From an uncultured Coriobacteriaceae bacterium (lineage in GTDB: Bacteria; Actinomycetota; Coriobacteriia; Coriobacteriales; Coriobacteriaceae), in contig CALUFC010000001.1 in NCBI GenBank assembly GCA_944319885.1, positions 186,001-250,000 of the forward strand: DNA of 64,000 bases. The letters are read 5' to 3'. Below the pieces are notes generated by a model. The model was not told where the DNA came from and did not search any database. It worked only from the letters and a program-made list of their open reading frames with translations. How positions within the stretch are numbered: position 1 is the first letter of the stretch; every line of letters starts with the position of its first letter. The position numbers and the translations under genes were made by a program. This document shows, in pieces, positions 11,297 through 24,315 of the stretch.

Positions 11297-11307
11297 GGCA
11301 CGCGATG

Positions 11308-11398
11308 CAGGGGTACCGCGCGCCGCCCGGCGCGTGGTTGAGAGGGCAGGTGCCCAACCCTTCGAACCTGTCAGTTAACACTGTCGTAGGGAGCATGC
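11308..11398 (+). promoter_or_regulatory. TPP riboswitch (THI element)
   Basis: The conserved blocks are present in order: GGGGTACC, GGTTGAGAGGG, CCCTTCGAACCTGTCAG, TTAACACTGTCGTAGGGAGC. These correspond to the P1/P2 strands, the pyrimidine-sensing CUGAGA-like loop and the pyrophosphate-sensing helix of the thiamine pyrophosphate aptamer. The GC-rich stem GCGCCGCCCGGCGC forms the variable P3a-like arm. It sits about 90 bp upstream of thiM, where thiamine pyrophosphate would reduce expression of the three downstream genes. Confidence 0.93.
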
Positions 11399-11485
11399 TC
11401 GCACGACTCCGGCGCTGCTGACAGACGTGGGATATACCCGCGGCAAGCAGCGCCGTTTTGCGTGCAGCTTCCGGAGAGGAAGACC

Positions 11486-22992: not shown

Positions 22993-23922
22993 GTGACGCA
23001 CGTGACTTACAAGGCGAACCAACGTCCGCTCGATGCGCTGGTGCCTGTGGCACTTGTGCTGGGCGTGGCGCTTGTGATTGTCGGCGTGGTGTGGACCTTT
23101 ACGCTCGCGCCGCTCGTGCAGGGGGCCGAGCTCTCCGAGCCGGTTGTGATCGCGGGCCAGCAGGTAACCACGAAGCTGCTGCTCAGCCAGAAGATCTTCT
23201 ACCTCCATGTTCCCGTGGCCGTGTCGTCGTTTGCGGTTATGGCGTTTGCAGCGTTCTGGTCGATCCGGCTGCTCATGACCGGCGACCGCGCATTCGATGT
23301 GCGCGCGAAGACCGCCATGGAGGTCACACTGGTCTTCGTGGCCGCTACGATGATCTCGGGCGATTTGTGGACGTGCTTCGAGTGGGGCGTCTGGTGGGTG
23401 TGGGAGCCCCGCCTCACCACGTATTTCATCCTGACGCTGCTCGTGATTGGCTATTTCATCCTGCGGAACGCCATTGAGGACCCCGAGCGCCGCGCGCGCT
23501 TCTCGGCCGTGTTCTGCATCGTTGCCTTTGTGGACGCGCCCATCTCGTTTCTCATCACGCGCCTCGTGCCGAGCTCCATTCATCCGGTGGTCTTCCGAAC
23601 CGATAGCGGTCTGCCGCCCATGATGCTCATTCCGTTTTTGCTGGGCCTGTTTGGCATGCTGCTCATGGCTTTTGCGCTGACGCGCATCGCGCTTGCCATC
23701 AATGCGCGTGCAGCCGAGGTCGAAGAGCTCAAGGCACGCCTGGAGGAGCAGGATGCGCAGGCGCAGCGTGCGGCGGCGCAAGAGGCGCTCGATCGTCTGC
23801 GGGCTGCCGGAGTGCGGGTTTCCGACTCAGCGTCTTCCGCTCATACCCCGGAGGTTGTAGGTTCAAATCCGGATTCCGAACGCAGCGTTGCTGCTCCCGA
23901 TTCACCCTCTAAGGAGGTCTAA
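22993..23922 (+). CDS. ccmC: Cytochrome c biogenesis protein CcmC with tRNA-derived C-terminal tail
   Basis: 309 residues, about 60 longer than common CcmC. Six membrane segments, LHVP histidine at 72, the WWD motif WGVWWVWEPRLTTY (131-144) and a second histidine in SSIHPVV mark heme handling onto CcmE. After residue 240 a charged coiled-coil-like tail (AEVEELKARLEEQDAQAQ) follows, then AHTPEVVGSNP (283-293). That last segment is encoded by 23839-23870, which matches the 3' half of tRNA-fMet at 30 of 32 bases. GTG 22993 is used; GTG 23002 is possible. Confidence 0.93.
   Translation: MTHVTYKANQRPLDALVPVALVLGVALVIVGVVWTFTLAPLVQGAELSEPVVIAGQQVTTKLLLSQKIFYLHVPVAVSSFAVMAFAAFWSIRLLMTGDRAFDVRAKTAMEVTLVFVAATMISGDLWTCFEWGVWWVWEPRLTTYFILTLLVIGYFILRNAIEDPERRARFSAVFCIVAFVDAPISFLITRLVPSSIHPVVFRTDSGLPPMMLIPFLLGLFGMLLMAFALTRIALAINARAAEVEELKARLEEQDAQAQRAAAQEALDRLRAAGVRVSDSASSAHTPEVVGSNPDSERSVAAPDSPSKEV
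23839..23870 (+). repeat. tRNA-fMet 3'-half-like sequence inside ccmC
   Basis: Thirty of 32 bases equal 24270-24301, covering the anticodon loop, 3' anticodon stem, variable loop and T arm of the tRNA-fMet gene. The copy is in the sense orientation and in a coding frame. Spacing between equivalent bases is 431 bp. Confidence 0.85.
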
Positions 23923-23925
23923 CCC

Positions 23926-24120
23926 ATGGATCCCATTCTTGCTGAGGTCTATTCGACCGTGCTCCCCGCGGCGCCGTTTGTGATTGGCGCATACGTGGGC
24001 ATCTGGATTGCGCTTGCTGCGTACGTGTTTGTGCTCGCGCGTCGCTCCAAGCGCACCGAGCGCGACTTCGACGCGCTTCGACAGGCGCTTGCCAACCGCG
24101 AGGAGAAGCTCGAGCATTAA
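23926..24120 (+). CDS. ccmD: CcmD-like small membrane protein
   Basis: 64 residues with one membrane helix (FVIGAYVGIWIALAAYVFVLARR) followed by a charged tail (SKRTERDFDALRQALANREEKLEH). This is the CcmD layout, which stabilises the CcmABC-CcmE release complex. It follows ccmC by 3 bp and has a strong TAAGGAGG site. CcmD proteins are poorly conserved, so the call rests on size, topology and position. CcmG, CcmH and CcmI genes are not in the window. Confidence 0.8.
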   Translation: MDPILAEVYSTVLPAAPFVIGAYVGIWIALAAYVFVLARRSKRTERDFDALRQALANREEKLEH

Positions 24121-24238
24121 CCGCTCGCAACGCCACGTGTCGTCTATTGTGGAGAGCGCTCCATATTCGAAGATTGTTGCTTGCGTTTGCGGCGGACGGC
24201 GCGTAATATACTCTCTTGCGCAAAGGCGCACCAGATAG

Positions 24239-24315
24239 TGCGGGGTGGAGCAGTCTGGTAGCTCGCCGGGCTCATAACCCGGAGGTCGTAGGTTCAAATC
24301 CTGCCCCCGCGACCA
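24239..24315 (+). tRNA. Initiator tRNA-fMet (CAT anticodon)
   Basis: 77 nt with encoded CCA. The anticodon stem carries three consecutive G:C pairs (GGG-CTCATAA-CCC), the initiator mark. The acceptor ends TGCGGGG and CCCCGCG pair except for a T1-G72 wobble, which fits the weak first pair needed for formylation. D arm and T arm (GGTTCAAATCC) are normal. Confidence 0.97.

Follow-up and report, generated by a model that had tools for sequence, protein, structure and literature searches.

A segment of the initiator tRNA gene within the ccmC coding sequence of Collinsella-like bacteria and its possible renewal from the adjacent tRNA gene

Introduction

Near the end of the ccmC gene of an uncultured Coriobacteriaceae bacterium lies a short block that closely resembles the middle of the tRNA-fMet gene located some 400 bp further downstream, and the two have to be reconciled: how did a piece of a tRNA gene come to be read as protein, and what has kept it recognizable? 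The first-pass annotation of the window (the whole 64,000-nucleotide stretch of DNA analysed here, in whose numbering all coordinates without a genome label are given) regarded the block as a possible relic of an integration and excision event. We examined the locus in the window and compared it with the corresponding loci of related genomes. The features on which the argument depends are the following.

22993–23922, + strand: ccmC, 309 amino acids (PF01578, 4e-22, residues 20–197)
23839–23870, + strand: tRNA-fMet-like block in the ccmC tail, corresponding to tRNA positions 32–63, translated AHTPEVVGSNP, found in five species of the genus
23926–24120, + strand: open reading frame of 64 amino acids in the ccmD position, between both copies (ORF call; conserved in the genus)
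24239–24315, + strand: tRNA-fMet, anticodon CAT (ARAGORN; Rfam RF00005, 63 bits)
24270–24301, + strand: tRNA-fMet segment matching the ccmC block at 30/32 positions, from the anticodon stem to the T stem

Results

The repeat and its two host genes

The block at 23839–23870 (GCTCATACCCCGGAGGTTGTAGGTTCAAATCC) and the tRNA segment at 24270–24301 (GCTCATAACCCGGAGGTCGTAGGTTCAAATCC) were identical at 30 of 32 positions, on the same strand and 431 bp apart. The direct repeat claimed by the first-pass annotation was thus confirmed by direct comparison, and also by a genome-wide search and by shuffling: with up to three mismatches allowed, the ccmC block and the tRNA-fMet segment were the only two sites both in the window and in the 2.02-Mb genome, and not a single site appeared in 100 dinucleotide shuffles of the window, which rules out a chance match. 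An assembly artefact was ruled out as well, since the block was found in independent isolate and metagenome assemblies. ARAGORN and Rfam agreed on the tRNA gene, its boundaries and its anticodon, and according to a pattern search it is present in a single copy as the sole initiator tRNA gene of the genome. Its predicted initiator identity is marked by the GGG/CCC anticodon stem and a non-Watson-Crick 1–72 pair. The block is read in frame, and the view that ccmC received a copy of part of tRNA-fMet is supported.

The protein possesses a Cytochrom_C_asm domain and is encoded in a ccm operon context, both as expected for CcmC, and consists of a haem-handling membrane core followed by a coiled-coil stretch and a variable low-complexity tail. 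Orthologues were present in 33 of 60 relatives, and in all family members compared the tails beyond the coiled coil were long, variable and of low complexity. This rules out that the tail itself was made by the duplication, and the earlier statement that such a tail is absent from usual CcmC does not apply in this family, in which all members are long-tailed and the tRNA-derived stretch alone, only about 10–16 residues, is specific to the genus. The placement of ccmD between the two copies was correct in so far as an open reading frame of 64 amino acids occupies the ccmD position, but it has no Pfam match and carries the name by position.

Distribution of the block and the tree of the genus

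The host belongs to a small group of Collinsella-like Coriobacteriaceae of the gut, with Collinsella sp. An268, An307 and An7 and Candidatus Coprousia avicola as its nearest named relatives. Six species of the genus have a complete ccmC-tRNA locus, and the block was found in five of them, namely in the genome of the window (G000), G005, An268, Coprousia avicola and An307 (G008 was left out, its contigs being broken in the ccmC tail). This conservation across species had been overlooked in the first-pass annotation. All five copies had the same strand and frame, were located 400–435 bp upstream of the tRNA and varied little in their position with respect to ccmD and the coiled coil, while their extent varied with the species (tRNA positions 32–63, 35–63 or 25–72 of 77). 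The block was missing in An7, whose tail contained a weak 16-nt in-frame match, equalled or beaten by 5.5% of shuffled tails and possibly, at best, a decayed remnant.

A tree of the 6-kb ccm-region genes resulted in the topology ((G000,G005),(An7,(An307,(An268,Coprousia)))) with a support of 97–100 for these groupings, which were the same for all sites and for codon positions 1+2. A copy-specific A-to-C change (CATACCCCGG) was common to four of the five copies, whereas the An307 copy retained the A of the tRNA. The shared change indicates common descent and not five fresh insertions, and the distribution fits a single gain in the genus ancestor and a loss in An7. Independent recent insertions of the tRNA piece in each of three lineages, with no maintenance afterwards, would account for the high identity without invoking selection and agree with the young appearance of the An307 copy; we consider them very unlikely, since the common A-to-C in four copies, the same frame and the near-equal position would all have to be coincidences.

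Outside the genus, no ccmC block was detected among the family genomes searched, and neither the C-variant of the block nor a ccmC gene was found in viral contigs. Alignment with CcmC of related species, as the first-pass annotation had proposed, showed a block confined to the genus and always near the tRNA; the same tail in distant relatives lacking a nearby tRNA gene, which it had named as counter-evidence, was looked for and did not turn up.

Conservation of the block in comparison with neutral drift

A 29-base core was nearly fixed among the copies, while the remaining ccmC tail could not be aligned. Within this core, three synonymous A/T-ending codons (GTA, GGT and TCA) were kept in all five copies against the strong G/C-ending codon bias of these genomes; in the ccm genes elsewhere in the same five genomes, 0/29 A-ending and 3/81 T-ending fourfold sites were invariant. 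When neutral evolution was simulated under the fitted fourfold model, all three codons were kept with a probability of about 1e-7, indicating that either conservation acts on the DNA or the sequence gets renewed.

The encoded peptide, H-T/N-P-E-V-V-G-S-N, is itself fairly conserved amid the unalignable tail, as would be expected from purifying selection at the protein level. We regard such selection as the most improbable of the readings considered, because it would not keep synonymous A/T-ending codons, because replacements of V to G, T to N and P to A do occur, and because An7 does without the peptide and a comparable non-coding fragment, described below, is kept exact as well. A conserved RNA structure was also ruled out: both tRNA stems were broken in four of the five copies and there was no pair with a two-sided change. 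Four of the five copies have lost the left arm of the inverted repeat in the anticodon stem while keeping the right part; in An307 both arms and the overlap are present.

The An307 copy was the most informative, matching the tRNA at 47 of 48 positions over tRNA positions 25–72. Despite the position of An307 among the C-bearing species, its copy carries the A of the tRNA. Together with the 47/48 match this makes neutral survival impossible and means that the copy was recently either overwritten or inserted anew from the tRNA. More generally, the copy tracks its tRNA source beyond neutral divergence, as is characteristic of gene conversion. Because the tRNA-fMet is identical in all five block-bearing species there is no donor-specific marker, and conversion is not directly visible.

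The tRNA-fMet gene as an integration hotspot

The tRNA-fMet gene is an integration hotspot in the family. Extra 3' halves of it, starting mostly at about positions 29–35 and extending through the CCA end into a terminator, were present downstream in many family genomes, with integrase domains adjoining several of these attR copies, so that the search for islands and integrases at the tRNA-fMet of relatives, suggested earlier, was rewarded. The first-pass annotation was also right that the copied part of the tRNA is used as an attachment site, as follows from the hotspot and from an element of C. stercoris situated in an internal tRNA-fMet fragment (see below). The gene is likewise a synteny breakpoint: upstream, the ccm genes are common to the genus, and the gene order that follows the tRNA in the window is shared with G005 only. 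No attR copy of tRNA-fMet remains in the genome of the window.

Several further observations were made on these surroundings. To the right of the tRNA-fMet (window 24693 onward) a response regulator, a sensor kinase, a C39-like peptidase and two MFS transporters are encoded; far to the left, a TPP riboswitch was detected at window 11299–11409 with a score of 55.2, just above the gathering score of 54.3. Two tandem integrative elements, each with a tRNA 3' half and a left-end integrase-domain gene, stand behind the tRNA-fMet in G070:C1:157871-190827. Islands of 27 kb (G002, An7) and 13 kb (G060) also follow the tRNA-fMet; their translations suggest genes for a sugar-phosphate glycosidase, an RpiR-type regulator and PTS-like functions. 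The tRNA-fMet of An7 was itself changed (CCCAGAGG), with a compensated anticodon-stem change (CTGGG/CCCAG), the A side of which was also present in the An7 attR copy 27 kb away.

An island that integrated at the tRNA and left a relic after imperfect excision was the main idea of the first-pass annotation. The copied part does coincide with the attachment region, and in four species its 5' edge (tRNA positions 32–35) is near the attR starts (about 29–35). The Islander criteria for tRNA-gene islands reject internal, upstream, 0.4-kb, integrase-free fragments (PMC4383910), and the ccmC copy failed all four filters: a fragment must lie downstream, while the copy was upstream in all five species; it must reach the tRNA end, while the copy is internal; and the interval must contain an integrase and span at least 2 kb, while here 431 bp contain one open reading frame of 64 amino acids. 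No integrase was found between the copies, both integrase-domain matches of the genome being located on other contigs. Furthermore, the An307 copy starts at position 25, ahead of the usual attR starts, all the classical attR copies found in the family were downstream of the tRNA-fMet and extended through CCA, and the ccmC-ccmD-tRNA spacing was ordinary in genomes without the copy. A relic of integration and excision in the usual sense is thus not supported at this locus, and we consider it quite unlikely as the origin of the block.

An internal tRNA-fMet fragment occupied by an element in Collinsella stercoris

A scan for fragments within 2 kb of the tRNA-fMet in 62 family genomes revealed one other internal fragment: in G027, tRNA positions 25–58 were present in inverted orientation with a 34/34 match, 151 bp upstream of the tRNA, in non-coding DNA ahead of a neighbouring + strand gene. 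Three further candidates were rejected, the G025 fragment (+244 bp) being a decayed 3'-end attR copy, the close copies of G258 extending through the 3' end, and the match in G074 apparently belonging to a different tRNA. No internal fragment was present in G071, a further Collinsella genome in which the neighbouring gene of G027 also adjoins the tRNA.

In C. stercoris (G088) the equivalent site, 156 bp upstream of the tRNA, was split by a 20.7-kb insertion; the uninterrupted site of G027 maps to G088 1894364-1894513 and 1915232-1915685. The region of this element, G088:C1:1894200-1915685, extends between the tRNA-fMet and the neighbouring + strand gene. One junction consisted of CGCCGGGCTCATAA and the full tRNA 3' half, the other of the element end and CCCGGAGGTCGTAGGTTCAA. 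In G070 an element occupies the regular tRNA-fMet site, and its ends agree with those of the C. stercoris element at 159/160 and 168/170 positions; one and the same element thus inserts at the tRNA in G070 and at the internal fragment in C. stercoris. The comparison relies on the DNA of the ends, a 520-aa frame over the integrase region having been discarded as spurious. Internal tRNA-fMet fragments can therefore serve as secondary attachment sites, and the case suggests that 34 bases of internal tRNA sequence are enough for integration in nature.

The ccmC block might accordingly be a secondary attachment site too, that is, a decoy attB for integrative elements directed at tRNA-fMet, kept either by selection or by the passage of elements that bring a perfect tRNA 3' half and so refresh the block. 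This possibility is supported by the hotspot, at which many relatives have attR copies downstream of the tRNA and several of these adjoin integrases, and by the 20.7-kb element inside the inverted internal fragment of C. stercoris. But no element was present in ccmC in any genome examined, the left arm was lost in four of the five species, unlike in a preserved attB, an insertion in ccmC would separate ccmD from the rest of the operon, and the benefit to the host is conjectural. On balance a decoy is improbable for the ccmC block, although the suspicion that attachment-site biology stands behind the copy may be partly right.

Discussion

For a block that is present and in frame in ccmC, shared by descent and conserved more strongly than neutral drift permits, the best explanation in our opinion, held with about even confidence, is a partial tRNA copied locally in the genus ancestor and refreshed since then by exchange with the tRNA. 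An internal part of tRNA-fMet (about positions 25–72), comprising the anticodon arm, the variable loop, the T arm and some of the acceptor strand, would have entered the unconstrained ccmC tail some 400 bp upstream, on the same strand and in frame. The simplest mechanism would be a slipped strand or a template switch over a short range while the DNA was replicated or repaired. Since then the copy has been renewed from the tRNA in the An307 lineage, and further rounds of re-copying are probable. Upkeep may have proceeded by non-reciprocal exchange with the adjacent intact tRNA gene, either gene conversion or renewed template switching; since the tRNA is single-copy and strongly selected, presumably only transfer from the tRNA to ccmC survives, and both deletion between the direct repeats and reverse transfer would be lost by selection. 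A supporting parallel is the second internal fragment near the tRNA-fMet (G027, G088), located in non-coding DNA and exact over 34/34 bases with indels and differences in its flanks. Weak points of exchange are that a stretch of 30 bp is short for RecA and that only three clearly separate lineages carry the block. The common A-to-C implies that some bases escaped rewriting, and outside An307 selection on the DNA would leave a similar pattern.

If local copying and renewal from the tRNA are correct, it seems to be the adjacent tRNA gene, rather than what the protein does, that determines the sequence of this part of CcmC, and a function would wrongly be read into residues conserved in such a tail. 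A broader interpretation, which we consider speculative and rather doubtful, is that genomes of this family keep internal duplicates of the site targeted by integrases next to the one initiator tRNA gene that they possess, in one case within a coding sequence. Continuing DNA exchange would hold these duplicates at the tRNA sequence, and they would serve as built-in decoy attachment sites, taking up elements that otherwise enter the tRNA. As decoys they would illustrate how a genome can divert integrating elements from a single-copy tRNA gene that it cannot do without.

A search of the literature for such an arrangement of tRNA and ccmC, or for conversion between them, yielded no description, which is not proof of absence. 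Several known systems resemble it in part. Like the tRNA-gene islands (Islander, PMC4383910), the locus combines a tRNA gene and a direct-orientation fragment on one replicon with an anticodon-centred attachment region, but the ccmC copy is internal, upstream, at a distance of 0.4 kb, integrase-free and inside a coding gene. Secondary attachment sites, such as the second attB of SGI1 (PMC2297512), are paralleled by the C. stercoris element at its non-standard tRNA-like site, whereas the ccmC copy was never seen occupied and has lost the left arm in four of five cases. The palindromic elements of Rickettsia (reviewed in PMC10969869) are also non-coding-type sequences tolerated in frame in protein genes; in contrast to them, the ccmC block does not belong to a dispersed mobile family and represents one local copy of the adjacent tRNA gene. 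Finally, as in gene conversion and concerted evolution between repeats, the copy stays closer to its source than expected under neutrality, but here the two partners are a tRNA gene and a protein-coding gene, and the similarity extends over about 30 bp.
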